Under the pieces are notes generated by a model, which was not told the DNA's origin, did not search any database, and was given only the letters and a program-made list of their open reading frames with translations. The translations under genes and the position numbers were made by a program. From NCBI GenBank assembly GCA_947627215.1, contig CANQVD010000026.1, positions 1 through 53,822 of the forward strand: a stretch of DNA of 53,822 nucleotides. The letters run 5' to 3'. This document shows, piece after piece, positions 16,085 to 34,693 of the stretch; within the stretch, counting starts at the first letter, position 1, and every line of letters starts with the position of its first letter. The DNA comes from an uncultured Eisenbergiella sp. GTDB taxonomy: Bacteria; Bacillota; Clostridia; Lachnospirales; Lachnospiraceae.

Positions 16085-16104
16085 GCGGGCAGACCCCAGT
16101 CCCG

Positions 16105-16331
16105 AAAAGCCGCCCGCCGACAAAACGCCGCCCCACCCCTGTGTGCACATCCCTTTTCCGGACACGCTCGCGCTCGAGAAAAACGCAGCGGATGCTAGGT
16201 TCAGCTGCGCCCTGTCGGGCTTGCTTCACCAGAGATGCGAAGCAGCTCTTGGGCCGAGCGTTTTTCTGACGGTCCGGGAAAATGGGATGTGCACACAGGG
16301 GTGGGGCGGCGTCTTGTCGACGGGCTGTTTT
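16105..16331. repeat. fold-back element C (long inverted repeat with conserved core)
   Basis: Left arm 16105-16163 and right arm 16272-16331 are complementary over about 58 bases with few mismatches, including the perfect stretch CCGCCCCACCCCTGTGTGCA. The inner part continues with GAGAAAAACGC / GCGTTTTTCT and small hairpins. The core (about 16150-16286: CCTTTTCCGGACACGCTC ... ACGGTCCGGGAAAATGG) is shared with element D at 34468-34678, but the outer arms are not. It fills the gap between trpA and the convergent amidohydrolase. It could terminate or protect both transcripts as RNA; no protein is encoded. Confidence 0.75.
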
Positions 16332-16358
16332 ACGAGGCCGACTGCTCAATGCAATGCA

Positions 16359-16415
16359 TCCGGAAAAGGGATGTGCCCGCAGGGGCGGGGCGGCGTTTTG
16401 TTGGCGGGCTGTTTT
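16359..16415. repeat. solo arm related to element C
   Basis: A further copy of the right arm of element C, in the same orientation, running from TCCGGAAAAGGGATGTGC to GGCGGGCTGTTTT. It differs at about ten positions and has no core. It ends 17 bases before the amidohydrolase stop. Confidence 0.65.
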
Positions 16416-16432
16416 ATGTGGACCTGTATGAA

Positions 16433-17635
16433 TCACTGCCGTTCTTTTCTCTGATACACGATTTCTCCGTTGATGATTGTGAACAGGGTCCGCGAAAAGA
16501 CTTCCATTGGATTGGAGGTGAATACGGCGATGTCCGCGTCTTTGCCCTCTTCCAGGCTGCCTACCCGGTCATAGACGCCGCAGATCCGGGCGGGATTGCA
16601 GGTGATGACCTCCAGGCCCGCATACATGGGCAGTCCCTCTTTCACCGCGAGTCCGGCGCACAGCGGCAGGGACTGGATCGTGGATACCGGATGGTCGGTG
16701 CAGATAGCGATCTGTACGCCCGCCCGGTACAGGACGCCGGAGGTTTTGAAATCCACATTCTGGATCTCGATCTTGTTCCGGCTGGACAGATCCGGCCCCA
16801 CGATGGCGGGGAATCCGCTGGCCGCGATCTCGTCGGCGATCAGGTGTCCCTCGCTGCAGTGGTCCAGCGTCATGCGCAGGCCGAATTCCTCCGCGATGCG
16901 GATCGCCGTGAAAATATCGTCCACCCGGTGGACATGGGCCTTCAGCGGGATCTGACGGGAGAATACAGGCACCCAGGGCTCCAGGCAGAAGTCTTCCTCC
17001 GTTTCTCCCTGCTGCCGCTGTTGGCAGTACCTTCTTGCCGCAAACAGTTCCCGGCGCAGCATGCCCGCGATGGCCATCCGGGTCACCGGACTTTTTCCCA
17101 TCCCCGCATAATTCACCTTGGGATTTTCCCCGAAAGCGATCTTCATGGCGGCGGGCGCGCGGACGATCAGATCGTCGATGCGCCGCCCTCTGGTCTTCAG
17201 GAACGCGAACTGTCCGCCCACCACATTGGAGCTGCCCGGTCCCGCCATCAGGGAAGTGATCCCGGCCTGCACCGCATCATCAAAGGCGGCGTCCATGGTA
17301 TTGATGGCGTCGACGGCCCGCAGCCAGGGCGTGACGGGCTCCACGTTTTCATTGCAGTCGTCCCCTTCAATCCCCTTTTTCTCTTCGGTGATGCCCACAT
17401 GACAGTGGGCATCGATGAGGCCCGGCATCACCAGACAGCCGGAGGCATCAATGACCTGCGCCTCCGCACCCTCCGGCATCTGAATATCCGGCGCGATCCG
17501 CTCTATTTTCCCGTCCCGGCACAGAATGTCCAGCGCCTCCCCGGCCAGGGCGTCCGCCCTCTCCCGGTCCGCTGCATGATCCCGCGCCGTGCCCTGCGCC
17601 ATCCTCAGCACACGTCCGTTTTTGATCAGAAGCAT
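16433..17635 (-). CDS. amidohydrolase, imidazolonepropionase-like
   Basis: A 400-residue metal-dependent amidohydrolase. It has the HxH metal pair in GLIDAHCHVG, further metal ligands in KAHVHR and DHCSEGH, and the catalytic Asp in ICTDHPV. The N- and C-terminal strands form the composite beta-sandwich (LLIKNGRVL ... GKDADIAVF). This subgroup is annotated as imidazolonepropionase-related or dihydroorotase-like, without known substrate. No other histidine-degradation genes are nearby, so a hut role is not supported. ATG 17635 follows GGAGGCGAGG. It may be co-transcribed after spoIIQ. Confidence 0.82.
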   Translation of the reverse strand: MLLIKNGRVLRMAQGTARDHAADRERADALAGEALDILCRDGKIERIAPDIQMPEGAEAQVIDASGCLVMPGLIDAHCHVGITEEKKGIEGDDCNENVEPVTPWLRAVDAINTMDAAFDDAVQAGITSLMAGPGSSNVVGGQFAFLKTRGRRIDDLIVRAPAAMKIAFGENPKVNYAGMGKSPVTRMAIAGMLRRELFAARRYCQQRQQGETEEDFCLEPWVPVFSRQIPLKAHVHRVDDIFTAIRIAEEFGLRMTLDHCSEGHLIADEIAASGFPAIVGPDLSSRNKIEIQNVDFKTSGVLYRAGVQIAICTDHPVSTIQSLPLCAGLAVKEGLPMYAGLEVITCNPARICGVYDRVGSLEEGKDADIAVFTSNPMEVFSRTLFTIINGEIVYQRKERQ

Positions 17636-17759
17636 TTCCCTCGCCTCCCGCTCTCATGCTTTTCGGCTGCTGCACAGTGTCCGTGCCTTTTTCCCGCTGC
17701 CCGATCCGACTGCGCGCTTCCCGGCCGGCAAACGGCGTCCGCGCCAAACGGCTTCTCCG

Positions 17760-19040
17760 TTATCCCAGATAATCCAGCGGGTTCACGGGCTCCCCGTCCT
17801 TCGTCAGCTTGATATAGACGTTGGTTCCCTCCACGCTGTAATATTTCGTGGGCGCCGCCACCTGTCCCAGCACCACGCCCTCTTCCACGAAATCGCCTTC
17901 CTCCACGGTCACGTTGGCGAGCTGGCCGTAGGTCAGTTCATAGCCGTCTCCCAGGCTGGTCACGACTGTGTTTCCGGTCTGGGCGTCCTCGTAAACTTCT
18001 TTTACCATACCGTTTGCCGCGCAGGTCACATTGGTTCCCTGGGTGGAGGCGATCACTACAGAAGGATTATACCTGTACTGCCGGAGCGTGGGGAAATAAA
18101 TGGTCTTGTCCATGCTGTAATTGAGCAGGATATTCCCGGCGATGGGCCAGGCCAGATCATCGTTCTCCGAAAAATGCAGGTTCAGCGCCTCCCGCATCAC
18201 ATCTGCCACCGCTTCCAGCGCTTCCTCCTCCGCACCTGCCTCCATACCGGAAACCGGCGCCGCTGATGCGGATACCGTTCCGGAGGTGCCGGCCGTTCCT
18301 TCCGCCGTCTGTCCTGTACCGTCTGTTTCCTGTCCGCTGTCCGCGGTCAGCCCGGCCGCTTCCTGCCCGCCGTCACCGTCCGGCGCATCCGAACCCTGTC
18401 CGTCACTGCCTGCCGGCGTATCCGATGTCTGCCCGTCGCCTGCCGCGTCGGCTTCCTGCCCGCCGTTATTGTCCGGCGCATCCATCACCCATTCCTCCGC
18501 TTCCCCGGCCTCCGGACCGTCTGCCGTTCCAACGCCTGGCACACCGCTCCTTTCAATCATGGCATATCCCACGTTATTGACCATGCCGCCGGAAACGGAT
18601 CCATCCGTCAGCGGATCCAGCGAATCGACTGCCTCCGGCGGGTCGGAAACCGCTTCCGGCAGAAGCTCGTCCTGCATATCCGCCGCCTCTTCGGCCGTCC
18701 CGGCGTCCCGGGCCGCGGCCTGTGTGTCCGCACCCTGCGCCTGTCCGTTCAGCAGCCGCTCCTGTTCGATATAATAAGGATCATAATCCAGTTCTCCCTC
18801 CGCACGCTGTCCGCTGGTCAGGTTCCTCGCCGTGCTGTTTTCCGCCTGCGCCACCTGTCCGTCTGCCGCGTCATCCTCCAGCACGGAGAAATCCACCACA
18901 TTACCCTCCGGCTCCTGCGCCTGACCGTTTCTGTAAATGTAGACTCCCGTCACCGTCATCGCCGCCATCACCAGCACGCTGGAGGCGATCATGATCATTT
19001 TCTCTTTCTGATAGCCTGATTTCCTTCTTTTCATATCCAT
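17760..19040 (-). CDS. spoIIQ: SpoIIQ-like forespore engulfment protein, degenerate LytM domain
   Basis: A 426-residue protein: basic N-terminus, one membrane helix (about residues 14-35, MIMIASSVLVMAAMTVTGVY), a long acidic Gly/Asp/Gln-rich linker (about 40-280), then a peptidase M23/LytM-like domain (295-426). In active LytM proteins the metal ligands are HxxxD and HxH. Here the equivalent positions read NPSVV and LTYGQ, so zinc binding looks lost and a structural role is likely, as in the B. subtilis protein. SpoIIQ pairs with SpoIIIAH across the engulfing septum. It lies directly after spoIID, a common clostridial order. The linker is unusually long, with imperfect repeats such as DGQTSDTPAGSDGQGSDAPD. 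Confidence 0.8.
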   Translation of the reverse strand: MDMKRRKSGYQKEKMIMIASSVLVMAAMTVTGVYIYRNGQAQEPEGNVVDFSVLEDDAADGQVAQAENSTARNLTSGQRAEGELDYDPYYIEQERLLNGQAQGADTQAAARDAGTAEEAADMQDELLPEAVSDPPEAVDSLDPLTDGSVSGGMVNNVGYAMIERSGVPGVGTADGPEAGEAEEWVMDAPDNNGGQEADAAGDGQTSDTPAGSDGQGSDAPDGDGGQEAAGLTADSGQETDGTGQTAEGTAGTSGTVSASAAPVSGMEAGAEEEALEAVADVMREALNLHFSENDDLAWPIAGNILLNYSMDKTIYFPTLRQYRYNPSVVIASTQGTNVTCAANGMVKEVYEDAQTGNTVVTSLGDGYELTYGQLANVTVEEGDFVEEGVVLGQVAAPTKYYSVEGTNVYIKLTKDGEPVNPLDYLG

Positions 19041-19164
19041 TGTCCTTTCTGCGGCAATGGGAGACTCGTCTTCCCGCTTCCCATCGCCATGAATTTATGA
19101 CCGCCGTCCGCGCGCCGGTCCGGATTGAATTCCGTCAGGCATAGTTTTTCCAGTAATATCGGGA

Positions 19165-20160
19165 TTATTCCATTTTTTCCAGCGTCAGCCCCTCAAAAAA
19201 GACGTCCAGAAGCTGCAGGTAATCCGCTCCCTCTGCGGCCAGCAGATCCGCGCCGTACTGGTCGAAGCCCAGACCGTGTCCCACCCCCTTTGTCCGCATC
19301 ACGACCTCTCCGTTTTCCTCCTCCAACACAAAACAGGCGGAAGGAAGCGCAAAAAGCTGCCGGAACCGCTCCCCCGCCATCCGCGCCGTATCGCTCTCCA
19401 CCGCGGTCACATACCCTGCGCCGTCCCGGACCAGCCGCAACCGCGCGTCCTGTCCGGGCAGCTCCATTCCGGCTTTTTTCAGCGTTTCCAGGAAATTCGC
19501 CCAGGGTATCCTCTTTTCCTGCAAAAATTCCTCTGCCTCGATATCATGGGGACAATCGACGCTTTTGCACCAGGAAAACGCCTCCGCCCCCCAGATCTGC
19601 GCCGCATCCCTGGTCTTCCCGGCGCTGAGCCGGAAAAAGGGTGGACCGACCGTTTCGCCCTCCCGGGCCAGCACGATCCCTTCCGTCTCCCGCACCGCCG
19701 CGGAAAACTTTTCCTCCAGCGCTTCCCAGTCCGCTCCCCAGTGATCGCGCCGCTGCGCCGCGTCCAGATATTCCAGCCCGCTGTCCGCCTGATACAGAAG
19801 GCCGGATGTGTTTCCCCGCGCCCCCGCTTTCGCCCGGCAGATGCTTCGCAGGATCACAGCCTGCGCCTTCAGCGTTTCCTCCCGGTACTCCTCCGGTATA
19901 CAGGCCGCCAGCGCGCCCACCAGAAATTCCTCCAGCGGCATTCGCAAAACGCCGTTTTCCCGCTCCAGGCACAGCGTCAGGCCGTCCCGCGCGCGCAGAG
20001 CGGCCCCGGAGGTCTCCACCGCCTCCTCCTGCCGGATGCCGCTCACCAGACTGCAGGTGTAGGGCAGCAGGAGCAAAAAGAAAAGAACCGCAAGAAGGTC
20101 CTGTATTCGCTTCCTTCCTGCGGTTCCGGCCGCTTTTCCTTCCTGATTGGTTTTCCGCAT
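19165..20160 (-). CDS. spoIID: stage II sporulation protein D, lytic transglycosylase
   Basis: A 331-residue protein with an N-terminal membrane anchor (about residues 20-42, IQDLLAVLFFLLLLPYTCSL) and the SpoIID/LytB domain. Landmarks are the catalytic region LVGALAACIPEEYREETLKAQAVILRS with the PEEYREE glutamate, then the C-terminal MRTKGVGHGLGFDQYGA. SpoIID cleaves glycan strands left by SpoIIP and drives engulfment in the mother cell. The ATG at 20160 is chosen because GGAGG lies 8 bases upstream; a GTG six codons earlier overlaps that site. A sigma-E-like promoter lies about 20 bases upstream. The C-terminal half is shorter and more divergent than in Bacillus. Confidence 0.88.
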   Translation of the reverse strand: MRKTNQEGKAAGTAGRKRIQDLLAVLFFLLLLPYTCSLVSGIRQEEAVETSGAALRARDGLTLCLERENGVLRMPLEEFLVGALAACIPEEYREETLKAQAVILRSICRAKAGARGNTSGLLYQADSGLEYLDAAQRRDHWGADWEALEEKFSAAVRETEGIVLAREGETVGPPFFRLSAGKTRDAAQIWGAEAFSWCKSVDCPHDIEAEEFLQEKRIPWANFLETLKKAGMELPGQDARLRLVRDGAGYVTAVESDTARMAGERFRQLFALPSACFVLEEENGEVVMRTKGVGHGLGFDQYGADLLAAEGADYLQLLDVFFEGLTLEKME

Positions 20161-20178
20161 GGCGCATCCCTCCCCCAC

Positions 20179-20207
20179 ATTATATGGAAGGGAGCGCTCC
20201 GTTATGC
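20179..20207 (-). promoter_or_regulatory. putative sigma-E promoter of spoIID
   Basis: On the minus strand GCATAAC (20201-20207), 14 bases, CATATAAT (20179-20186). The -10 fits the mother-cell sigma-E consensus CATAYAAT, and the -35 matches five of seven positions of KMATATT. A GGAGCGCTCC palindrome lies in the spacer. SpoIID belongs to the sigma-E regulon in model species, which supports the reading. Confidence 0.5.
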
Positions 20208-20275
20208 GTTTCCGCCCTCCGCGCAGAAGACCCTCCGCGGATCGGCGCCGGCCGATACGAAACGGCCTTTGTCCG

Positions 20276-22567
20276 TTATCCCACGCGGTTATAATTGATC
20301 AGACATCCTTTCAGGATGATCTGACGTTCCTCGTCGGTCAGTTCGCCCAGCGTCACCGTGAACGCCGACAGCCCGCCGTCCTTCACCACATACCCCGTGA
20401 TCTCCGGCACTTTTTCCTCCACCGCGGTCCGGATGCCGGGGAAGAACAGATAATCCAGATTGGCAAAAGGCAGCGCCCCTTCCCCGATCAAAAACGGCAG
20501 CATGCCCCAGTTGATCAGATTGGAACGGTAACGCTTGGTGGCGTATTCGTTGGCGATGTTGGCCCAGCCGCCCAGCACCTTCTGACAGCTTGCCGCCTGC
20601 TCTCTGGCAGAGCCGTCGCCCGGCTTCACCGCGAAGATCGTGGAGCCGAAACCGAGATTTTCCCGCTTCACGTCAGGATACTTCGTATGCACAGCGTCCA
20701 GCACGGCCTTCAGCTCCGGCTTTTCCTCCGCCGGACATCTGCCCTCCATGAGGGCCATCTGAGCCTTCTGAATGTCCTTCGCCAGCCCTACATAGGCGGG
20801 ATCCTTTCTGGACAGGGTGAATTCCGCCAGTCCCAACGGATTGGAGCGGTAGGAGCTGGTCTCCCCGGAGGGAATCAGCTCATCCGTGGTGGTGACGGGA
20901 TCGTGGATCTCGGAAACCACCCGCAGGATCAGATTCTCCGGCAGGGCGCACATGGCCGGCCAGTCTTTGATGTTGGGGCCGAACTGGATCTCCACCGACG
21001 GGTCCGCAATGCCTTTGGAATCAAACACCCGGTTTTCATATATTTTCGCATCGAAATGATAGCGGTATTTCCCGATGGGGCCGTCGAATTCCGTCGCCGC
21101 CGTCAGCCGCCCCTGATTGGCCGCCGTCGCCGCGATGGAACGGGCGTCCATCAGCGCCACGGAAGCGATCTGACCGCTCTGCAGCCTGGAGCCTTCCCGG
21201 TTCGGGAAGTTGCGCGTGGAATGCCGGATGGAAAAAGCGTTGTTGGCCGGCGTGTCTCCCGCGCCGAAGCACGGGCCGCAGAACGCGGTCTTCATCACCG
21301 CGCCGGTCTCCAGAATTGCCGCCGCACAGCCGTTTTTGATCAGCTCCATATAGATCGGCATGGAGGCGGGGTAAACGCTCAGCGTGAAGCCGCCGTTTCC
21401 GATATAACTGCCCCGCAGGATATCCGCCGCCGCGCAGATGTTTTCAAACCCGCCGCCCGCGCAGCCCGCGATGATGCCCTGATCCACATAAAACCGGCCG
21501 TCCTTCACCTTGTCCCGCAGACTGTATTCCACCGCGTTGTCCAGGCTCACCGCCGCGCGTTTTTCCACGTCCGCCAGAATATCGGTGAGGTTGACGTTGA
21601 GCTCCTCGATCGTATAGGTGTTGCTGGGATGGAACGGCATGGCGATCATGGGCTTCACCTGATCCAGATCCACCGTGATCAATCCATCGTAATAGGCCAC
21701 CGTGCCGGGCTTCAGTTCCCGGTACTCGCCGCTCCTGCCGTGAATCTCATAAAAATCAGCGATCTCACTGTCCGTTTCCCAGATGGAGGACAGGCAGGTG
21801 GTTTCCGTGGTCATCACGTCCACGCCGATCCGGAAATCCGCGCTTAATGACGCGACGCCGGGGCCCACAAACTCCATCACCTTATTTTTCACATAGCCGT
21901 TTTTGAACACCGCGCCGATGATGGCCAGCGCCACGTCCTGCGGCCCTACGCCCTTCTGCGGCTTCCCCGTCAGATAGACGCAGACCACGCCGGGCATATT
22001 GATATCGTAGGTCTGGTTCAGAAGCTGCTTCACCAGCTCCGGTCCGCCCTCGCCCACGGCCATGGTGCCCAGCGCCCCGTAGCGGGTATGGGAATCCGAG
22101 CCCAGGATCATCTTCCCGCCGCCGGCCAGCATTTCACGGGCATACTGATGGATGACCGCCTGATGAGGGGGGACATAGACGCCGCCGTAGCGCTTCGCGC
22201 AGGTCAGGCCGAACATGTGGTCATCCTCATTGATGGTGCCGCCCACCGCGCACAGAGAATTGTGGCAGTTGGTCAGCACATAGGGAATCGGGAATTTCGT
22301 CAGCCCCGACGCGCGGGCCGTCTGAATGATGCCCACGAAGGTGATGTCGTGGCTGGTGAGCTTGTCGAACCTGATTTTCAGTTTTTTCATATCGCCGGAC
22401 GTATTGTGGGCCTCCAGGATCCCGTAGGCGATGGTATTTTTCGCCGCCTCCTCCCTGGAAACGTCCCGGCCGGTCTTTGCCCGCAGAGCTTCCTTCTCTC
22501 CGGGTCCCTCCGGCACCAACTCCCTGCCGTTTATGAGATAAGCGCCTTTTTCCGCCAGTGTTACCAT
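20276..22567 (-). CDS. aconitase-family hydratase, YbhJ-like
   Basis: A 763-residue aconitase-superfamily protein. It keeps the substrate loop GSDSHTRYG and the three cluster cysteines, one in [12 protein letters not shown] and two in [11 protein letters not shown], so a 4Fe-4S cluster is expected. The swivel domain in the C-terminal third carries [10 protein letters not shown] and [13 protein letters not shown]. Family length and motifs fit the group named after E. coli YbhJ rather than AcnA or AcnB. In many Clostridia this is the only aconitase-like enzyme and probably turns citrate into isocitrate for glutamate synthesis, which is inference. GGAGG lies 9 bases before ATG 22567. It is divergent from an AraC regulator. 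Confidence 0.88.
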
Positions 22568-22670
22568 ATCGTACTGCCTCCTTTACCGTTCTGACCGAAA
22601 TGCCGCGGCCCCGGGATCCCGGACCGGATCTCTGTGAACCGCAGCACCGGAATATTTCCATAACGATTTT

Positions 22671-22699
22671 ATTAAAACACACTCGTTGAAAATTGTCAA
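22671..22699 (-). promoter_or_regulatory. promoter of the aconitase-family hydratase
   Basis: Minus strand TTGACA (22694-22699), 17 bases, TTTAAT (22671-22676). It overlaps the opposing promoter at 22686-22714. Confidence 0.75.
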
Positions 22700-22714
22700 A
22701 AATTATGATAAAAT
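22686..22714 (+). promoter_or_regulatory. promoter of the AraC-type regulator
   Basis: TTGAAA (22686-22691), 17 bases, TAAAAT (22709-22714). The -35 boxes of the two divergent promoters interleave, so polymerase or regulator binding at one should affect the other. Confidence 0.65.
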
Positions 22715-22820
22715 AATTTTGTTTCCGATATCAGGCATTCTTTCTGTCTGCTTTATCTTTTCGATTCGGTCTGTTTTATCCTTCCGACGCGCTTTTGCAT
22801 CGTTTTTCAGAGGTGATCCC

Positions 22821-23729
22821 ATGACCCCATTTCCGCTCGTCCCGCAGCCGCTGTTCTGTGTGGAAACGATTCTTTTCATGCGGCGGCTCGAATGCCGGAG
22901 GGAGCTCTCCTTCCGGGAAATGCAAAAAGAGCTTTCCGGACCGGGAAACGCCGCCACCGCGCTGCTGATCCCGGAGAAAGGCCCTCTGCTTCTGAACACT
23001 CTTTGCGGTTCCGTCTCTCTCCCGCCCGGCCAGGCGTTCCTCTGCCCCTTCCCCGGGCCGAAATCCTGCCAAAGCCCGAACGGAGCCGGCTTCACCCTGA
23101 CCCTGCTGCTGTTTTCCTGCGCGCCTGCGCCGCACATCCTGGAAAACCGCGGCTTTCCGCTCGGCGTAGAGGAGCGGACGCTGCTCCAAAAGCTGTTCGG
23201 GGAGTTCTCCGCGCTGCTCGAAAGCACACCGTCCGGCTGCGGCCCCCGGACCGGCTGTTCCCATCTGATCCGGCTATATCTGGAAGAGCTTCTTATCTGT
23301 CTGACCCGGCAGCAGATACAGGCGATCCCGCCCGGCGCGCAGGACCCCGCGGAGCTGTCCCGGATCCTCCGCTATCTGAATGCCCATCTGGACGCGCCGC
23401 TCAGCATCGGGCAGATCTGCCGCGACAACCTGATCGGCCGCGCCCGTCTCGCCGGACTGTTTCACAGCGCTTACGGCTGCGGCGTCATCTCTTTTTTCAC
23501 CTGGCTGAAAATCCGGCGTGCCCAGGAAATGATCCGGGACGGCCGGCTGAACTTTTCCCAGATCGCCGACGCCCTCGGCTATGCCTCCGTCCAGTATTTT
23601 TCCCGCCGATTCCGTCAGATCGCCGGGCTGACGCCCTCCGGATATGCGGCCGCGGTGCGAAAGGGCGGACAGATACAGAAAGTCCCGGCGCCGGGTCCGC
23701 CGCGGGCGGGATCCTGCCGGGAGCTTTGA
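22821..23729 (+). CDS. AraC-family transcriptional regulator
   Basis: A 302-residue regulator. The C-terminal 100 residues hold the two helix-turn-helix motifs of AraC proteins, seen in LSIGQICRDNLIGRARLAGLF and in FSQIADALGYASVQYFSRRF followed by GLTPSGY. The N-terminal sensing half (about 1-190) shows no clear cupin motif that I can recognise. The ATG at 22821 follows AGAGGTGA; the frame is open upstream but lacks a ribosome site. Being divergent from the aconitase-like gene with overlapping promoters, it is a good candidate to regulate it. The convergent 3' neighbour is the RND pump. Confidence 0.85.
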   Translation: MTPFPLVPQPLFCVETILFMRRLECRRELSFREMQKELSGPGNAATALLIPEKGPLLLNTLCGSVSLPPGQAFLCPFPGPKSCQSPNGAGFTLTLLLFSCAPAPHILENRGFPLGVEERTLLQKLFGEFSALLESTPSGCGPRTGCSHLIRLYLEELLICLTRQQIQAIPPGAQDPAELSRILRYLNAHLDAPLSIGQICRDNLIGRARLAGLFHSAYGCGVISFFTWLKIRRAQEMIRDGRLNFSQIADALGYASVQYFSRRFRQIAGLTPSGYAAAVRKGGQIQKVPAPGPPRAGSCREL

Positions 23730-23751
23730 CTGCTTTGTCTGACAGCGGAAA

Positions 23752-23765
23752 GCAGGCGCGCCTGC
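23752..23765. terminator. palindrome between convergent araC-type and RND genes
   Basis: GCAGGCGCGCCTGC is a perfect 14-base palindrome in the 46-base gap between two convergent stops. A second inverted pair, CTGCTTT/AAAGCAG, precedes it. There is no clear U-tract, so termination is only a guess. Confidence 0.3.
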
Positions 23766-23775
23766 CGCCGCTGCC

Positions 23776-26784: not shown

Positions 26785-28994
26785 TCTCCTGTCTCCTCCG
26801 GCGCGGTCTGTGCGCCGATCACCCGCACCTTAACGCCGTCCTCCAACTGCGTGGACCAGGTGGCTACCAGCCGGTCACCGGCGGAAATTCCTTCCGTCAC
26901 CTCGACCATATCCTCGCTCATCAGTCCCAGCGTCACCGGCGTCCGCACCGCTGTGTCTTCCTCTGTGACGACGAACACATAGGCCTGCTCGCTCTCAAAA
27001 TGCACCGCATCGTAAGGGATCAGCACCGCGTTTTCCGTCCGGAAGGTGTCCACTGTCAGCTTCACCGCCGTTCCGCTGATGAGCTGATCCCCGCCGGCCT
27101 CCGTCACGGCCTTTATCACGAACAGCCCGCCGCTCTGGGCGTCTGCCGCCTCTCCGATCTCCATGACCGTGCCGGTAAAGGTATTGCCGTTTTTCTCCAG
27201 CGTGACAGGCATTCCCACATAGAGATTCGCCCGCACCTGCTCGCTCACCGAAAACGTGACGTTCATGGCATCCTGATTGGAAATCACAAAGGCCGCGTAG
27301 CCCGGCTGGGCGAGGCCGTACTGCTCCACGCTCCTGCTCACCACCGTGCCGGAGATCGGCGAGGTGGGAGAATAATACTCCAACTGGAGATTCGCGCTCT
27401 TGATCCCCACATCCGCCGCCTGCATCTGCGTCGCCAGCGCCGCCGCGGAGTCCTGATAGGCCTGCCCGTTGGCGATCCCGTAGGTCACCTGGGCGTCCTG
27501 CAGATTGTCCTCATAAAAATCGATGGTCTTTTCCGTCGTATCCCTGGCGGTCACCGCCTGATCGATACTGCTGTCCAGGGACGCCTGATTGCTGCGCAAC
27601 TGGGATGCCTGATACTCCAGCGCCGCGATCTGAGCGGCATGCTCCAGGATTTCGGAGCTGGCCGCGCCGCTGCCGATGTCGTAAGCATCGTAGCCCAGCT
27701 CCTCCGCGTCCGCCTTCGCCGCATTGATCTCCTGCTGCTCGCGATAGGCCGCCTTTGCCCCATTCAGATCCGTAGTACTACGCGCCGGTACATGTCCCTC
27801 CGGCAGAACCTCACCGCTGAAATAATACCCCCGGGCGGTTCCTTCGATCCCGTCCCGACTGTAAAACGCGGTTTCCTCCGACTTCTCCTGCACCGTCGGC
27901 CCCGGCAGGGATTCCCCCGCAGAAAGGCCCTCCAGTCCCGGGAGCTTTTGCTTTCCCTCCGCAGAGGTGTTTCCGGGAACGCTTTCCTCCTCCGACTGTG
28001 CACCGGTCCCGGCAGTCTCATCGGTTTCGCTGCCCGCAGAGGAACTCTCCTCGGAAGAAGCTTCCGTTCCGACAGGCGCGGTCTCACTCCCGTCCCCGTC
28101 TTTCCCATCTCCGGAATCCTGCTGCCCTTCTCCGATCCCGTCCGCCTCAGAAGCGGATGGCTCCGACTCTTCCGAGGACTGGACTTCCGTCTCGGGAGCG
28201 CTTTCTCCGCTTTCCGGCGTTCCCTCCGTACCGTCCGCCGCAGGCCCGTCGGCCAAGATATTCGGCATCAAGTAACCGGGCCCCGGATAGGAAGCGGCAT
28301 ACGGCCACTCATAATAATCCGGCGGCTCCGGATAATCGTATGCAACCCTGTAACGGTAATTCCCGTTCACGCTTCCCATACGGTCAATATACCGTTCTGC
28401 CCTGGCCACCACCTCGGACCGTCTCGCCTGGTTTGCATTCATCTCTGCCAGCGAGCTCTCGATTTCGGACAGAGCATCCTCCATCTCCGTCTTGGCCTGC
28501 TGCGCATCCACGATGCCGTCCACCGCCGACTGATACTGGTCCTTCGCGTTCTCGATCTGGAACTCGATGGAACGGATGTTGGACTGCATGGAGATGTTGT
28601 TCATCACCTGACTGGAACCCAACTGCATCTGCGCCGTGATCTCGGCGCTTTTGCGGGTCAGCTCGGCATTCTCCTTCTGCAGCCGCGCCGCGTCGTCCTT
28701 GATATGGAACAGCACATCCCCGGCCTTCACCTCGTCGCCGACCTCAAAATAGACCTGATCCACCTCGCCGGAGACCATCGGCATGACCGTCACCTGCTGC
28801 TGAGGCGACACCGTACCGATGAATTCATTGCTCACCGCCAGCGTCCCGATCTGTGCGCTGACCGCCTTTACCGCCACCGCGGCCTCCTCCGCCGGTTCCG
28901 TTTCTTCGGACGGATCCGCCTGCTGCGCGCAGCCGCTCAGCAGAAGCGATGCCGCCAAAACCAGAAAAAGCCTCCGAAACGATTTTTCCGCCAT
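26781..28994 (-). CDS. RND pump adaptor lipoprotein (HlyD/AcrA family) with large acidic insert
   Basis: A 737-residue membrane-fusion protein. The signal peptide ends LLLSGC, lipidated at Cys22. The first lipoyl half is VMPMVSGEVDQVYFEVGDEVKAGD (about 71-94); coiled-coil helices follow (about 105-200), and the returning helix is at about 410-520. The second lipoyl half (SPISGTVVSRSVEQYGLAQPG) and beta-barrel come after. Between the helices lies about 200 extra residues, Tyr/Pro-rich then Ser/Glu/Gly/Asp-rich (about 245-375), which look disordered. Usual adaptors are 350-450 residues, so this insert nearly doubles the length. The start at 28994 follows AGAGGG. It is co-transcribed with the permease. 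Confidence 0.9.
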   Translation of the reverse strand: MAEKSFRRLFLVLAASLLLSGCAQQADPSEETEPAEEAAVAVKAVSAQIGTLAVSNEFIGTVSPQQQVTVMPMVSGEVDQVYFEVGDEVKAGDVLFHIKDDAARLQKENAELTRKSAEITAQMQLGSSQVMNNISMQSNIRSIEFQIENAKDQYQSAVDGIVDAQQAKTEMEDALSEIESSLAEMNANQARRSEVVARAERYIDRMGSVNGNYRYRVAYDYPEPPDYYEWPYAASYPGPGYLMPNILADGPAADGTEGTPESGESAPETEVQSSEESEPSASEADGIGEGQQDSGDGKDGDGSETAPVGTEASSEESSSAGSETDETAGTGAQSEEESVPGNTSAEGKQKLPGLEGLSAGESLPGPTVQEKSEETAFYSRDGIEGTARGYYFSGEVLPEGHVPARSTTDLNGAKAAYREQQEINAAKADAEELGYDAYDIGSGAASSEILEHAAQIAALEYQASQLRSNQASLDSSIDQAVTARDTTEKTIDFYEDNLQDAQVTYGIANGQAYQDSAAALATQMQAADVGIKSANLQLEYYSPTSPISGTVVSRSVEQYGLAQPGYAAFVISNQDAMNVTFSVSEQVRANLYVGMPVTLEKNGNTFTGTVMEIGEAADAQSGGLFVIKAVTEAGGDQLISGTAVKLTVDTFRTENAVLIPYDAVHFESEQAYVFVVTEEDTAVRTPVTLGLMSEDMVEVTEGISAGDRLVATWSTQLEDGVKVRVIGAQTAPEETGE

Positions 28995-29181
28995 CCTAAT
29001 TTCCCTCTTTTCCGTACAGACCGTGCCGCCCGCACGTCGTTCCTTCCGTCTCCGCACATTCAGGCAGCACCTATCATCCGCCGTTTTCCCGTAAAAAATC
29101 AAACGCAGATCCGTCCGGCATTTCCCGGCCGGATATCCGGGCACGGCACTTTGGCTTCATCAAAACAGCGATTTCATTTTT

Positions 29182-29210
29182 ATCTTAGCTTTCCGTTTCT
29201 TTTCCGTCAA
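29182..29210 (-). promoter_or_regulatory. promoter of the RND adaptor-permease operon
   Basis: Minus strand TTGACG (29205-29210), 17 bases, TAAGAT (29182-29187). It leaves a leader of about 180 bases before the adaptor start. The 28995-29383 gap otherwise holds only this promoter, the glgP terminator and a small hairpin near 29260. Confidence 0.6.
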
Positions 29211-29343
29211 TAAAATAAATATTAAATCTGCCGAAACTTCATGCCTCCGTTTTTCGCACGGAACGAAACGGTCCTTCGTTCCCCCTGATCTGCGCAAAAG
29301 CTATCCCCTCCCGCCGGGACACAGACCGCGCGGAAACAAAACG

Positions 29344-29372
29344 AGGCCGTCGGAACGAATCCGGCGGCCCCT
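29344..29372 (-). terminator. glgP terminator
   Basis: On the minus strand GAGGGGCCGCCGGA-TTCG-TTCCGACGGCCTC forms a strong hairpin with a TTCG loop, followed by GTTTTGTTT. It lies 12 bases after the glgP stop. Confidence 0.75.
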
Positions 29373-29383
29373 CGGCACATCTT

Positions 29384-31867
29384 TTATTTTGTGATCTCTT
29401 CTTCTCTGGGCAGTTCCACCTTGTCCAGGTGCCACAGCTCATCCACATATTCCCGGATCGTGCGGTCAGAGGTGAACTTGCCGCAGCTTGCCACATTGAG
29501 GATCGCGCTCCTCGCCCAGCCCTTTTCATCCTTATAGGCAGCCTCCACGCGGCGCTGCGCCTCCGCATACGCCTTGAAATCGGCCAGGATGAAGTAAGTA
29601 TCCGCTTTGGACGTGCTCTGCGTATTGAGCAGAGAATTGTACAGCGGGCGGAACAGCTCGGTATCGTGGGAATAGGTCCCGTTGATGAGCTGCATCAGCA
29701 CGCGGCGGATATCCTGATCGCTGTTGAAAATATCCATGGGATTGTAGCCGCCGAAGTTCTCATAGCGGATGACATCATCGGAGCTCAGGCCGAAGATGAA
29801 AGCGTTCTCCCTGCCCACCTCTTCCACGATCTCCACGTTGGCACCGTCCATGGTGCCCAGCGTCAGCGCGCCGTTGAGCATGAACTTCATGTTGCCGGTG
29901 CCGGAAGCCTCCTTGCTGGCCGTGGAAATCTGCTCGGACACGTCCGCCGCCGCGAAAATCCACTCCGCGTTGGAAACCCGGTAGTTTTCGATGAACACCA
30001 CCTTGATCCGCCCGTTGATCACGGGATCGTTGTTTACCACATCCGCCACGGAATTGATCAGCTTGATGGTCAGCTTGGCGATGCGGTAGCCCGCCGCGGC
30101 CTTGGCGCCGAAAATGAAGGTTCTGGGATAGAAGTCCATATCCGGATGGTCCTTCAGCTCGTTGTACAGATACATCACATGCAGGATGTTCAAAAGCTGC
30201 CGCTTGTATTCGTGCAGGCGCTTCACCTGCACGTCGAAGATGGAACGGGGATCGACGGAAATGCCGTTGTGCTCCCAGATGTATTTCGCCAGACGCACCT
30301 TGTTCTGGTATTTGATATTCATGAATTCCTGCTGCGCCTTCTCATCGTCCGCATAGACGCGCAGCCTGCTGATCTTGGGCAAATCGGTGATCCAGTCGTC
30401 TCCCACATGCTCCGTGACCCAGGAAGCCAACAGCGGATTGCCGTGCAGCAGGAATCTTCTCTGAGTGATGCCGTTGGTCTTGTTGTTGAATTTCTCGGGC
30501 ATCATCTCATAGAAATCCTTCAGCTCCTGCTTCTTGAGGATCTCGGTATGCAGTCTCGCCACGCCGTTGACGGAGAAACCGGCGCAGATCGCCAGATGGG
30601 CCATTTTCACCTGACCGTCATAAATGATCGCCATTTTGCGGACCTTCTCATGGTCGCCCGGATACCTCTGCTCGATCTGCTGGATGAACCGCTTGTTGAT
30701 CTCCTCCACGATCTGGTAGATCCTGGGCAGCAGACGGGAGAACAGCTCGATGGGCCATTTTTCCAGCGCCTCAGACATGATCGTGTGGTTCGTATAAGCG
30801 CAGGTCTTCGTGGTCACGGCCCAGGCCTCGTCCCAGGTCAGATAATAATCATCCATCAGCACGCGCATCAGCTCGGCCACCGCCACGGTGGGATGGGTAT
30901 CGTTGAGCTGGAACGTCACCTTCTCGTAGAACTTATGGATATCGTCGTGGTTGCGCATGTATTTCGCCACCGCCTCCTGTACGGATGCGGAAATGAAGAA
31001 ATACTGCTGTTTCAGACGGAGCTCTTTTCCGGCATAATGGTTATCGTTGGGGTAGAGCACCTCCACGATGTTGCGGGCCATGTTCTCCTGCTCCACGGCC
31101 TTCTGATAATTTCCTTTGTCAAAGGAATCCAGGCTGAAGCACTCCACCGGCTCCGCATCCCAGATACGCAGGGTGTTCACGATGCCGTTGCCGTAGCCGA
31201 CGATGGGCATATCGTAGGGGATGGCCCTGACAGACTGATATCCCTCCTGCTTGAAAACGAACCGCCCGTTGGCGTCCATGTGCGTGCTGATCCAGCCGCC
31301 GAACTTGATCTCCTTGGCATACTCCGGGCGGCGCAGCTCAAACGGATAGCCGTCCACCAGCCAGTTGTCCGGCACCTCGATCTGAAAGCCGTCGCGGATC
31401 TCCTGCTTGAACATGCCGTAACGGTAACGGATGCCGCAGCCGTAGGCGGCATACCCCAGTGTCGCCAGGGAATCCAGGAAACAGGCCGCCAGACGTCCCA
31501 GACCGCCGTTGCCCAGCGCGGGATCGGGCTCCTGATCCTCCACCACGTTGATGTCCACGCCCAGCTCCTCCAGCGCTTCCTTCACGCTGTCATAGGCCTG
31601 CAGGTTGATCAGGTTATTGCCCAGCGCCCGGCCCATCAAAAACTCCATGGACATGTAATAGACCATCTTGGGGTCCTGCTTCTCGTATTCCTTCTGGGTC
31701 GTCATCCAGTTGTCCACGATCACGTCCTTGATCGCATAGGAGACCGCCTGAAAAACCTGCTGCGGCGTAGCCTCCTCCAGCGTCTTGCGGTACAGGGTCT
31801 TGACCGTACTGCTCACGCTTCTCTTAAAAAGCTCTTTATCGAATTTGATCGATGCTTTCTGCAACAT
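29384..31867 (-). CDS. glgP: glycogen/starch/alpha-glucan phosphorylase
   Basis: An 827-residue GT35 phosphorylase that releases glucose-1-phosphate from alpha-1,4-glucans. The PLP lysine is at about 661 in EASGTGNMKFMLNGALT. Other landmarks are the N-terminal MSMEFLMGRALGNNL, DPALGNGGLGRLAACF, FQLNDTHP and KRLHEYKRQ. It is the long glycogen-phosphorylase type, without the extra domain of plant forms. The start ATG 31867 follows GGAGGAG. No glycogen-synthesis genes lie in the window; it is a single-gene unit with its own promoter and terminator. Confidence 0.96.
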   Translation of the reverse strand: MLQKASIKFDKELFKRSVSSTVKTLYRKTLEEATPQQVFQAVSYAIKDVIVDNWMTTQKEYEKQDPKMVYYMSMEFLMGRALGNNLINLQAYDSVKEALEELGVDINVVEDQEPDPALGNGGLGRLAACFLDSLATLGYAAYGCGIRYRYGMFKQEIRDGFQIEVPDNWLVDGYPFELRRPEYAKEIKFGGWISTHMDANGRFVFKQEGYQSVRAIPYDMPIVGYGNGIVNTLRIWDAEPVECFSLDSFDKGNYQKAVEQENMARNIVEVLYPNDNHYAGKELRLKQQYFFISASVQEAVAKYMRNHDDIHKFYEKVTFQLNDTHPTVAVAELMRVLMDDYYLTWDEAWAVTTKTCAYTNHTIMSEALEKWPIELFSRLLPRIYQIVEEINKRFIQQIEQRYPGDHEKVRKMAIIYDGQVKMAHLAICAGFSVNGVARLHTEILKKQELKDFYEMMPEKFNNKTNGITQRRFLLHGNPLLASWVTEHVGDDWITDLPKISRLRVYADDEKAQQEFMNIKYQNKVRLAKYIWEHNGISVDPRSIFDVQVKRLHEYKRQLLNILHVMYLYNELKDHPDMDFYPRTFIFGAKAAAGYRIAKLTIKLINSVADVVNNDPVINGRIKVVFIENYRVSNAEWIFAAADVSEQISTASKEASGTGNMKFMLNGALTLGTMDGANVEIVEEVGRENAFIFGLSSDDVIRYENFGGYNPMDIFNSDQDIRRVLMQLINGTYSHDTELFRPLYNSLLNTQSTSKADTYFILADFKAYAEAQRRVEAAYKDEKGWARSAILNVASCGKFTSDRTIREYVDELWHLDKVELPREEEITK

Positions 31868-31949
31868 AAATTCTCCTCCTCAGAGTCCTTTTTCACAATC
31901 TCTTATCAAACATATCACGTCCGAAGACCCGGACATAATCATAACAGAA

Positions 31950-31978
31950 ATTATACCAATACTTTCCCCGATGCGCAA
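31950..31978 (-). promoter_or_regulatory. glgP promoter
   Basis: Minus strand TTGCGC (31973-31978), 17 bases, TATAAT (31950-31955), with an extended TG before the -10. Confidence 0.7.
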
Positions 31979-31992
31979 CAGCCGAATTTAAA

Positions 31993-32011
31993 GAAAAAAA
32001 ACGGCTTGCCG
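31993..32011 (-). terminator. possible terminator of the LysR-type gene
   Basis: Minus strand CGGC-AA-GCCG followed by eight T. The stem is short; a longer GGCC hairpin lies upstream near 32045. Confidence 0.4.
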
Positions 32012-32075
32012 GGCATTTTGCGGGCAATTTCCCGAAAACAGGCCCCAAAGGCCCAGTTTTCTCCGCAGCCGGCAG

Positions 32076-32963
32076 TTACAGCCAGGATTCCACCCCTTTG
32101 AAGGTGCGAAGATGACGGTCCAACTGAAACAGGAACCGGCCGATCAGCGGGTTCTCATTCTCCTCATGCACCAGGCTGTATATGATGCGGCGGGGCGGTC
32201 CGCCCTTCAGCCTGCGGATGCGGATCCCCTTTTTCTCCAGCCTGGAGGCCACCGTCACCGGCACCACCGCCCAGGTCCTGTCCGTCAGAAATTCCTCCAT
32301 GAGCGACATCTGGTCCAGAAAGACCAGCGGATAGACGCTGTCCGGGAAACAGCGGATATGCCACTGATCGCAATCCCCGTTCCAGGGCAGCCGGATCTCC
32401 GCGGCCGGGTCCAGCTCCTCCACTAAGACTTCCCCGCCGGGGTCGGACAGGGAGGCCCCGCCCGCCAGCACGAAGGGCTCCGAGAACGCCGGTCTCACCT
32501 GCAGCGATCTGGCGTATCTCTGATCCGATACAAAGGCCAGATCCGTCATTTTCTGTTCCACATAGCCGTATGCCTCGTGGGAATGATACTGATGAAAATT
32601 CAGGTGATACTCCGGATTTTCCCCGAGAAACCGCTGAAAGACCTCCGGGAAGATGTAATGGCTGACGCTCCCCACAGAGGCCAGCTTCAACTGGCGCTGC
32701 TTCTTTTTCCCCAGGACGGCGCCGGTCTCCGCCCATAGCCGCCTCCATTTCTCCGCGATGGGCAGAAAGTCTTCCCCCTCCCTGGTGAGCCTGGCCTCCC
32801 GCACGCCCTTCTGCCGCGCGAACAGCGGATAGCCGATCTCCTCCTCCAGCGTCTGGATCCGCCTGGTCAGGGCGGGCTGGGTGACGAACAAATGCTCCGC
32901 CGCCGCGGAAACCGTTCCGTACCGCACCACGGCGAGAAACGCTTCTATCTCCGGATTGGTCAT
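32076..32963 (-). CDS. LysR-family transcriptional regulator
   Basis: A 295-residue LysR regulator. The N-terminal winged HTH reads TVSAAAEHLFVTQPALTRRIQTLEEEIG (about residues 17-44), followed by the linker helix and a periplasmic-binding-like sensor domain. The start at 32963 follows AAGGAG; the frame is open upstream but without a ribosome site. It is divergent from a MATE transporter across about 157 AT-rich bases, the usual arrangement for a LysR protein and its target. The effector is unknown. Confidence 0.9.
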   Translation of the reverse strand: MTNPEIEAFLAVVRYGTVSAAAEHLFVTQPALTRRIQTLEEEIGYPLFARQKGVREARLTREGEDFLPIAEKWRRLWAETGAVLGKKKQRQLKLASVGSVSHYIFPEVFQRFLGENPEYHLNFHQYHSHEAYGYVEQKMTDLAFVSDQRYARSLQVRPAFSEPFVLAGGASLSDPGGEVLVEELDPAAEIRLPWNGDCDQWHIRCFPDSVYPLVFLDQMSLMEEFLTDRTWAVVPVTVASRLEKKGIRIRRLKGGPPRRIIYSLVHEENENPLIGRFLFQLDRHLRTFKGVESWL

Positions 32964-33120
32964 GACCGATTCTCCTTTTAATATAATGTTTAATTTATAT
33001 TTTATATCAGAATTATTCATTATGCAATCCCCGGAAAATGTATTACGATTACTCCGATGAGAAGGCACCGGTACGGAACGGACGGACCCGCCGCCCGCCG
33101 GAGCGCGAAAAGAGGACTCC

Positions 33121-34473
33121 ATGAAACCAATGACCGCATCCCAAACAGACACCCTGCTGTCCGGCAATATCCGGCGCGAGCTCATCGCGCTCACGCTGCC
33201 GCTGCTTTTGTCCAATATCCTCCAGCAGCTTTATAATACGGGGGACTCGCTCATCATCGCCCGCTTTCTGGGGAGCCTCGCCTTCGCCTCCACCGGCGTC
33301 TCCGGCACGCTGATGAACCTGTTCCTTTTCATGCTGAACGGCTTCTGCGTCGGCGTTTCCGTTCTGTTCGCCCAGGCTTACGGCATTGGCAATCCCCGGG
33401 TGTTCCGGCAGGATTTCTTTCACGCCCTTCTGACTGGGACGGCGCTGACGCTCCTGTTCGCCGCTCTGACCATCGGCCTGCTGGACCCGCTCCTGACCCT
33501 GATCCGCACGCCGGACGCGCTGAGGGACTATTGCCGGATCTATATGACGGTCATCCTGGCCGGACTTCCCGCTTCCTTTTTTTATAATTTCTTCGCCTCT
33601 GTCCTGCGCTCGGTGGGCAATACCCGGTGGGCGCTGTACGTTCTGCTGCTGTCCGTGACGGCGAACATCCTTCTGGACCTTTTGTTCGTCGCCGCATGGG
33701 GCATGGGGATCGCGGGCGCCGCCTATGCCACCGTGCTCGCCCAGCTGCTGTCTGCCCTCTGCTGTTTTCTCTGCCTGAAAAGAAAATATCCCGACCTGAT
33801 CTGCCGCCGGGAGGATCTTCGTCCCCGGTTCCCCGTCTTCGCAAAGGTTCTCCGGTTCGGCATGGTTTCCGCCCTGCACCAGTCCAGCCTCTATATCGGC
33901 AAGATCCTGGTGCAGGGAGCGGTCAACACGCAGGGTGCCTCCGGCATCGCGGCCTACACCGCCACCATGCGGACGGAGGGCTTCGTCAACTCCTTCGGGG
34001 ACAGCGGCTCCCAGGCCATGAGCATTTTCATTTCCCAGAATTACGGCGCGGGGAACCGGGAACGGACGAAGGACGGCTTTCGCCAGGGCGCGATCCTGCT
34101 CACCGCCTTCGGGGCCCTTGCCTCCGCCCTCATGTTTTTCGCCTCCCGCGCCTGTCTGCTCCTGTTCCTGGATCCGTCCGACGGACTGTCCCTGGGATAC
34201 GGCGTTTCCTATCTGAAGATCGTGGCGCTGTTTTATGTCCTCTGCTTCCTGGGGAACGCCTTCGTCGGCTGGTTCCGCGGGATCGGCCGGGTCGCGGTCC
34301 CCTTCTTCGGCACCACGCTCCACCTCACCCTGCGGGTGATCCTCTCCTGGGCATTCATCGGCAGGCTGGGACTTCCCGCCGTGGCCCTCGCCACGGGAGC
34401 CGGATGGATGCTGGTGATCGTGTTCTTCATCGCCGTGACCGCCCTCCTGCGCCGGTCAGGTCCTCTGGGATAA
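33121..34473 (+). CDS. MATE family multidrug/sodium antiporter
   Basis: A 450-residue protein with twelve predicted helices in two six-helix bundles. The first begins at IRRELIALTLPLLLSNILQQLYNTGDSLI, the standard MATE opening; the second half starts near FAKVLRFGMVSALHQSSLY. It is of the DinF/NorM-like type common in Clostridia and exports cationic compounds against Na+ or H+. The start ATG 33121 follows AGAGGA. It is divergent from, and likely controlled by, the LysR gene. The TAA stop lies inside the outer arm of element D. Confidence 0.92.
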   Translation: MKPMTASQTDTLLSGNIRRELIALTLPLLLSNILQQLYNTGDSLIIARFLGSLAFASTGVSGTLMNLFLFMLNGFCVGVSVLFAQAYGIGNPRVFRQDFFHALLTGTALTLLFAALTIGLLDPLLTLIRTPDALRDYCRIYMTVILAGLPASFFYNFFASVLRSVGNTRWALYVLLLSVTANILLDLLFVAAWGMGIAGAAYATVLAQLLSALCCFLCLKRKYPDLICRREDLRPRFPVFAKVLRFGMVSALHQSSLYIGKILVQGAVNTQGASGIAAYTATMRTEGFVNSFGDSGSQAMSIFISQNYGAGNRERTKDGFRQGAILLTAFGALASALMFFASRACLLLFLDPSDGLSLGYGVSYLKIVALFYVLCFLGNAFVGWFRGIGRVAVPFFGTTLHLTLRVILSWAFIGRLGLPAVALATGAGWMLVIVFFIAVTALLRRSGPLG

Positions 34474-34678
34474 GGCCCCGGCAGAAGACAGGGGCAGCGG
34501 CCGCCCTTGCGTATTCCTTTTCCGGACACGCTCTCGCTCGGAGAAAAACGCAGCGGACACTAAGCTCGCCTGCGTCCTGACGGACTTGCCTCGCTAAGTG
34601 CCGGCGTTTTTCTACGGTCCGGGAAAATGGAATACGCAAGGGCGGCTGCTGACCCTGCTTTCTGCCGGGGCCTTATCC
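34468..34678. repeat. fold-back element D (long inverted repeat with conserved core)
   Basis: Left arm 34468-34527 and right arm 34617-34678 are complementary over about 60 bases, for example GGATAAGGCCCCGGCAGAA and CCGCCCTTGCGTATTCC. The inside carries GAGAAAAACGCAGCGGA ... GCGTTTTTCT and matches element C from CCTTTTCCGGACACGCTC inward. Outside this core the arms are unrelated to those of element C. The left arm includes the last codon and stop of the MATE gene, and the right arm is its inverted copy. It lies between convergent genes. Confidence 0.75.
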
Positions 34679-34693
34679 GGGAGGGCGGACGGA

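Follow-up and report, generated by a model that had tools for sequence, protein, structure and literature searches.

A dispersed DNA foldback family in an Eisenbergiella genome whose locus-specific arms are probably rewritten by template switching

Introduction

How can two foldback elements share a core while each carries self-complementary arms found only at its own locus? This question is raised by elements C and D in a 53,822-nucleotide contig (CANQVD010000026.1, the whole of which we call the window) from an uncultured Eisenbergiella sp. The original prediction was that local sequence had been copied from one side of the core to the other, by snap-back synthesis or template switching at the core hairpin. 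We find that C and D probably belong to a DNA foldback family that is non-coding and present in high copy number, with arms that are rewritten by template switching, which sometimes extends into neighboring DNA. Each copy is one long imperfect hairpin, made of a conserved core with fixed internal-loop motifs and pairing arms of free sequence. The arms are locus-specific and change in step, the cores are inverted and exchanged, and at one locus a local copy is polarized. The open-access literature that we searched held no description of this foldback family.

The genome of the window, G000, is a 4.04-Mb draft of 108 contigs in which the window is contig C26. We compared it with partial DNA from two close genomes, G002 and G003.

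Results

The arms of the family are specific to their loci

The core-start motif CCTTTTCCGGACACGCTC occurs exactly at 16152 and 34516 of the window, both on the plus strand, and a search allowing up to three mismatches (0.10 matches expected) found no third site. C and D do have the same core, as predicted. The D core matched the G000 genome 42 times, strongly in 40 cases; of the 88 first-look candidates from this search, 40 were scored. G000 holds at least 50 copies of the family, with cores of 102-135 bp. Each of the 31 copies compared (30 G000 copies and C) has self-complementary arms that begin at the core edge and are 34-82 nt long. Across the three genomes we collected 132 distinct copies (50 in G000, 25 in G002 and 57 in G003), and 126 of these have self-complementary arms. 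The exact 18-nt core start had no match in viral contigs.

We compared arms within and between loci. In 100 copies with full flanks, the left arm and the reverse-complemented right arm of the same locus agree at about 95% of positions to nt 33 and reach background by about nt 75. Arms from different loci clearly exceed background agreement for only about 18 nt. Arm scores for 102 copies had a median of 100.5 within loci, compared with 19-20 (maximum 65) for 5113 non-orthologous pairs. This is the pattern predicted for local copying, in which arms match across the element and not between loci. The opposite pattern, identical outer arms elsewhere in the genome, was not found: the whole arms of D, C and a third locus, L021, have no second occurrence in G000, and their best other matches are short. 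Two of the short D-arm matches (AAGGCCCCGGCAGAAG, at C7:57991 and C7:58152) flank a known family copy at C7:58026-58132, indicating a weak family consensus in the inner arms. The arms of C and D were thus correctly called unrelated by alignment, apart from this inner consensus. "Near-perfect" was generous for these two, which pair beyond the core edge at 48/54 (D) and 44/49 (C) positions; many other copies pair better.

A scan of 1.54 Mb of G003 DNA for long inverted repeats returned 51, of which 41 have the family core, 7 have a second, different core and 3 have neither.

Arms change together and cores invert at orthologous loci

Both flanks of 14 G000 loci were found in G003 DNA. Eleven of these loci are occupied in G003, two (L021 and L004) are empty and the C locus holds a coreless stem. 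L004, empty in G003, is occupied in G002. Among the three genomes we defined 49 orthologous pairs by their flanks and dropped three by hand (one 141-bp match at 69.5% and two in which another copy lay next to the first), leaving 46. Four loci give three pairs each, and the pairs are not all independent.

In 44 of the orthologous pairs, 160 of 2298 aligned columns changed in both arms, compared with 0.7 expected if the arms were independent. A further 98 columns are paired gaps, 52 of them from one pair. Without the pairs that have one of five loci with heavily changed arms as first member, 65 both-arm changes remain. The core is inverted, with flanks and arms in place, in 17 of the 46 pairs. 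Cores are also exchanged between loci, with the flanks staying in place: median core identity is 0.879 to the orthologue and 0.861 to paralogues, and a paralogue is at least as close in 28 of 36 pairs. Published work identifies the combination of arm homogenization and spacer inversion as the mark of template switching between inverted repeats (PMC8604942, Abraham and Hazkani-Covo 2021), and both are seen here, in 160 columns against 0.7 expected and in 17 of 46 pairs.

Could these changes come from short-read assemblers that collapsed or mis-threaded palindromes? All of the assemblies are drafts of unknown method, and perfect inverted repeats are hard to assemble. In 9 of the 17 inverted pairs at least one copy has a perfect arm of 21 nt or more beside the core, so these pairs fail our check on path ambiguity. 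In the other eight, both copies have less than 21 nt of perfect arm, which makes short-read path ambiguity an unlikely cause there. Separate assemblies show the same arms at orthologous loci, and left and right arms differ at many positions (343 mismatches in 6122 columns). Changes on the scale of the paired indels and whole-arm replacement would also be more than bubble popping produces. We consider an assembly artifact to be extremely improbable.

No empty orthologue of D was found; the sole element orthologue, in G003, has nearly the same arms, and beyond G003 only gene fragments aligned. Because this single orthologue has nearly the same arms, the ancestral arm of D is not polarized. The whole window gave one 2.3-kb match (75%) to the sampled G003 stretches, away from C and D.

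At the C locus, G003 has a paired stem after trpA without the core. The sides of this stem match at 30/37 positions by eye, and its right side matches the inverted left arm of C over 41 nt at 90%. C itself has two right arms, R1 and R2 (Table 1). BLAST aligns the right side of the G003 stem from within R2 outward, and a pairwise alignment places the same side on R1. The locus is ambiguous: either the core was lost in G003 or a core entered a stem.

The second possibility could be general, with cores inserting into existing hairpins such as transcription terminators and the arms being the prior stem. The coreless stem at C is what this predicts. Empty long stems are rare, however (3 of the 51 G003 inverted repeats lack either core), and the empty alleles of L021 are stemless by eye. 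Arms also begin exactly at the core edge in 31 of 31 copies, and divergent genes flank a number of copies (7 of 47 in a crude open reading frame (ORF) call, some of them doubtful). Insertion into prior hairpins is therefore very unlikely as a general account, and pre-existing terminators as the target were rejected because long empty stems are rare.

The complete tally of gene context for the 47 G000 copies, by a crude ORF score, was 25 tandem, 13 convergent, 7 divergent and 2 undetermined; several of the divergent cases could reflect spurious ORFs that extend into arms. C and D do lie between convergent genes, as was noted from the window. A bidirectional terminator or a nuclease target is a possible role for the family.

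Local DNA was copied into an arm at L021

L021 offers a polarized gain. The locus is empty in G002 and G003, which share one short arrangement running from a stop codon to a promoter-like region. Its tree groups G000 with G002, as ((G000,G002)0.998,G003). Given this tree and two empty alleles, a single gain in G000 is more parsimonious than two losses, each of them precise. In the left arm of G000, the outermost 24 nt are a 24/24 inverted match to the right flank of the empty G003 allele, and by eye the inverted copy rejoins the left flank at a CGC overlap. Judged from these alignments, the outer arm of L021 was made by local copying.

Copying has a direction at some loci and apparently reaches gene ends

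One locus present in all three genomes (L070 in G000, L134 in G003 and L231 in G002) has unlike arms in G002, the left type on both sides in G003 and the right type on both sides in G000. Sister species are homogenized in opposite directions here.

Three other comparisons point to directional copying. When L172 of G003 is set beside L017 of G000, the outer left arm of L172 looks like the right flank found in both species. The neighboring frame ends ERQPQS* in G003 and ERQS* in G000, and this gene end was apparently rewritten by copying. In L126 of G003, compared with L096 of G002, the left gene's end, GGCTGAG, is found inverted in the right flank (by eye, and below the threshold of the window test described below). 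In L106 of G002, a right-arm stretch that is absent from L160 of G003 matches the left arm. We read L070/L134, L172, L126 and L106 as copying by parsimony, without an outgroup.

A window test for directional copying gave 9 events in the 44 pairs and 4 in 430 controls. A stricter version gave 6 events and none in 220 controls. Of the loci behind these figures, the directional reading rests on L172, L070/L134 and L106, together with L126.

By a crude ORF rule, 28 of 140 sides have the stop of a neighboring frame within a paired arm. D is one such case: the TAA stop of the MATE gene (34471-34473) is within the left arm and its inverted copy is in the right arm, as had been predicted. This palindrome fits local copying, with its direction unpolarized.

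Stems covary, probably at the DNA level

We searched more widely with the pattern CGCTYBCGCTYN{9,13}AGCGGNNSHTAR, which is narrow and finds 8 places in G000. It is present in 12 of 392 genomes of the order and in at least 120 stretches of a named collection. Among the matches listed (80), most are from Lachnospiraceae or genera that we assign to it, some are from Selenomonadaceae and a few are likely chance. By a simple arm test, 62 of 127 pattern hits have strong arms. The arms of these relatives in other genomes are mostly shorter. They often share an end, with GCC as the outermost bases in 17 of 71, and a similar arm, ATTGTGCAnATnGTATATTCCA, recurs in some records. The first arm base is G or A, often with C before and T after the right arm, and some have further outer stems by eye. 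A defined conserved terminus was considered and rejected, as the recurrent end bases did not resolve into one.

Two groups of relatives differ in their ends. Four copies (L390, L348, L378 and L418) have 30-34-nt arms and similar sequence outside them (TGAnAnGGnC before, TAC after), as if the repeat exceeds the paired arms. In L385 and L377 (Selenomonadaceae, Anaerovibrio), the arms are longer and imperfect and resemble each other from copy to copy, which sets them apart from those in the window's genus.

From 53 members that passed length and arm filters, we chose 40 for alignment (39 from other genomes and 1 from G000). The loop motifs are invariant and the stems vary freely. Over 19 core stem pairs, 90.7% of cells pair, compared with 69.0% in shuffles and 34-44% in slid controls. 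Double-changed stem cells number 165 against 50.9 in shuffles, and only 16 of 679 paired stem cells are G-U or U-G.

Strong core covariation, conserved internal loops and a position mostly after genes (tandem or convergent contexts) would all be expected of a structured RNA, or of a strand-specific hairpin transcript, under selection, with arms covarying by compensatory mutation. Selection on one strand should leave mismatches that are compatible with G-U pairing on that strand. In the superfamily they do lean toward the minus strand (59 v 90, P = 0.014), a skew that favors an RNA and counts against our reading. The arms show no such lean (119 on the plus v 109 on the minus strand, P = 0.55), and the cores of the three genomes skew the opposite way (100 v 75, P = 0.07). 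There is no consistent one-strand excess across arms, superfamily and cores, and one-strand RNA selection was rejected on this ground. Paired indels, core inversion and directional copying also argue against an RNA. A permissive search of the C stretch and 15 loci against Rfam 15 yielded two hits, both far below gathering scores (mir-7950 beside C, with 15.9 of 82 bits, and Fungi_SRP at L021, with 23.3 of 65 bits), and an Rfam identity was rejected. We regard an RNA under selection as very improbable. Stem covariation with few G-U pairs and no consistent strand excess points to pairing at the DNA level.

Observations that weigh against rewriting, and the case for transposition

Several observations weigh against rewriting of arms by template switching. 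Six of the 132 copies are armless, five of them being partial cores. The 43 core matches in G003 comprise 40 with strong arms, 1 weak, 1 with none and 1 unscored at the edge of a stretch. In the superfamily, 65 of 127 hits lack strong arms, including clear chance matches in unrelated bacteria and arms with internal loops. Single-arm changes number 193 in the 44 pairs, so correction is not rapid, and the heavily changed loci supply 95 of the 160 both-arm changes. Among the nine window-test events, L070 is counted twice, the arms of L244/L183, L211/L110 and L241/L229 are so changed that the alignment may mislead, and the L243/L263 event is possibly an alignment shift. Finally, L074 (G000:C5:905-1051) and L233 (G002:C43) have wholly different self-complementary arms of about 70 nt between flanks that are 87-89% identical, an arm replacement for which simple mutual correction is no explanation.

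Other observations of this kind bear on transposition of the whole palindrome. Miniature inverted-repeat transposable elements (MITEs) and foldback elements are short non-coding repeats with inverted ends, dispersed in intergenic DNA. If the family moved in this way, the arms would be terminal inverted repeats that later drifted while being kept paired, with no local copying. The weak inner-arm consensus seen by eye across loci, CCCCGGCAGAAAGCGCCGCCCGCCGCCTGTGTGCATT, fits transposition of core plus arms, as do the shorter arms, shared end and similar arm of relatives in other genomes. At L021, neither empty allele contains the inner 47 nt of either arm, and the inserted DNA is largely non-local. 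A search of 61 genomes (E <= 0.05) for a donor of the L021 arm found no long match, and the best non-self match was the 24-nt flank of the empty site. On these alignments the inner arm of L021 is not a product of local copying.

Evidence against transposition comes from the 24 nt of L021 outer arm that are inverted local DNA, from neighboring-frame stops within paired arms, and from directional rewriting at L172, L106 and L126. The ends of this family are locus-specific, unlike those of MITEs, and are not shared in G000, G002 and G003 beyond the weak inner consensus; they are partly shared in some other genomes. Nor is a target-site duplication apparent: a crude test on 71 superfamily copies flagged no repeat of at least 3 nt. 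Two-nucleotide repeats were in excess at offset 0 (12 v 4.6) and at offset 2 (39 v 11.9), the latter inside arms. Transposition of whole palindromes thus seems unlikely, although less so than the other alternatives. For the original prediction, these data support copying between arms, inversion of the core and, at some loci, the copying of unique neighboring DNA, apparently with gene ends included. They do not support a whole arm of local origin, given the inner consensus and the inner 47 nt of L021.

Comparison with known systems

Integron attC sites conserve structure over stem sequence, with asymmetric bulges, and act as DNA-level hairpins. The foldback family likewise conserves structure rather than stem sequence, with asymmetric bulges, in what appears to be a DNA-level hairpin. 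It differs in that we recognized no core-site boxes by eye; an integrase was not sought.

Repetitive extragenic palindromic (REP) sequences and REPINs with their RAYT transposases are high-copy extragenic DNA hairpins found mostly downstream of genes, as here, but a REP is 20-40 bp (PMC3116915, PMC3733652). In this family the core alone is 102-135 bp and the hairpin with its free arms is about 180-350 bp. The letters of the unpaired tag that marks one end of a REP, GTAG or CGTC, occur inside some cores (e.g. CGTAGCGG), and no such tag was seen by eye at the hairpin foot. The Y1 (RAYT) transposase family PF01797 has 5 hits in G000 and none in G002 (68% complete) or G003 (95% complete), and all three genomes are element-rich. 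No family core was found in the Y1 loci examined. RAYT mobilization was rejected because no Y1 transposase was found in element-rich G002 and G003, and RAYT is seemingly not needed for maintenance.

Quasipalindromes edited by template switching share arm homogenization, spacer inversion and multinucleotide double changes between arms with this family (PMC8604942, PMC8794818). In those reports they are single short inverted repeats in yeast genes, with spacer inversions that change 2-5 bp, or stems of RNA genes. The family described here is dispersed, has arms of about 32-106 nt, inverts a spacer of about 115 bp and captures unique flanking DNA. A proposal that perfect stems are built and maintained by template switching has been published (PMC8794818, Monttinen and Loytynoja 2022). 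Coding palindromes of Nematomorpha mitochondria also have long near-perfect inverted repeats and concerted arm change (PMC6649704). Those palindromes lie inside animal mitochondrial protein-coding genes, and the accessible portion of that report mentions no shared core family.

Features of C, D and a second core family

In a scan of the window for inverted repeats, D ranked first (34462-34521/34625-34684, 60 nt, 88%) and C ranked third (16103-16157/16280-16334, 55 nt, 89%). The second-ranked repeat is the extra arm copy in C (16106-16162/16359-16415), which the original prediction had overlooked. At 16335-16415, this extra copy is joined to an inverted left core edge, a layered rearrangement. 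By eye, the spacer before R2 has an inverted likeness to the hairpin loop at the same place in G003. Coordinates are collected in Table 1.

The second core family in G003, with the conserved tip AACTCGCTTCGCTCA.ACA, lies between long inverted arms and makes up 7 of the 10 long G003 inverted repeats without the first core. Separately, L130:1849-2027 (G003:C12) is an 85-nt inverted repeat with 9 nt between its arms and no core.

Table 1. Parts and neighbors of C and D (window positions) and copies of the second core family (G003 loci)
Feature	Position	Strand	Remarks
C left arm	16103..16151	+	trpA stop codon 16082-16084 just outside
C core, long type, 134 bp	16152..16285	+	edges CCTTTTCCGGAC / GTCCGGGAAAATGG
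C core loop motif ACGCTCGCGCTC	16164-16175		
C core stem GAGAAAAACGC	16176-16186		
C right arm R1	16286..16334	-	left arm inverted, 44/49
C second right arm R2	16359..16415	-	inverted left arm plus left edge of core
D left arm	34462..34515	+	holds final codons and stop TAA 34471-34473 of MATE gene
D core, short type, 115 bp	34516..34630	+	
D core loop motif ACGCTCTCGCTC	34528-34539		
D core stem GAGAAAAACGC	34541-34551		
D right arm	34631..34684	-	left arm inverted, 48/54
trpA, tryptophan synthase alpha chain	15119..16084	+	neighbor of C; ORF start unrefined
Amidohydrolase	16433..17635	-	neighbor of C
MatE transporter	33121..34473	+	neighbor of D
AAA_14 / DUF4143 protein	34694..36019	-	neighbor of D
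Second-core copy	L139:3617-3903		
Second-core copy	L139:349-629		
Second-core copy	L185:6654-6909		
Second-core copy	L135:12609-12853		
Second-core copy	L138:5156-5403		
Second-core copy	L174:15549-15795		
Second-core copy	L154:8889-9124		

Discussion

From these patterns we infer a mechanism that acts during replication, gene conversion of cores and a mode of dispersal. During replication, the nascent strand would fold back at the core and copy the opposite arm, sometimes running into unique neighboring DNA, before rejoining the template at short homology, as in template switching of the quasipalindrome type. The core could be inverted by the same process or by recombination between the arms, and cores would be homogenized by interlocus gene conversion. 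New copies probably arrive as a core with inner arms, and the locus-specific arms would then arise by template switching after or during arrival.

We tentatively suggest a broader possibility, which we hold as rather less likely than not to be correct in full. The family may represent a class of element that is conserved as a hairpin and not as a sequence. Its core, recognized or folded as single-stranded DNA, would rewrite its own stem, recruit neighboring DNA (including gene ends and stop codons) and exchange and flip cores, perhaps with a putative single-strand DNA recombinase. Stem covariation would then arise without RNA function.

Template switching is a known process, and the family would present it in a form that we did not find described, a dispersed foldback family. 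Each genome offers tens of orthologous loci that serve as parallel natural experiments in template switching. Their advantages are arms tens of bp long, a marked spacer with a readable orientation, and sister species that resolved one locus in opposite ways. The family shows a route by which perfect stems can be built and kept. Strong covariation is possible without RNA function, which calls for caution in covariation-based RNA discovery. Editing of gene ends also appears to occur, with C-termini that can be changed and stop codons that can be moved by a copying process.

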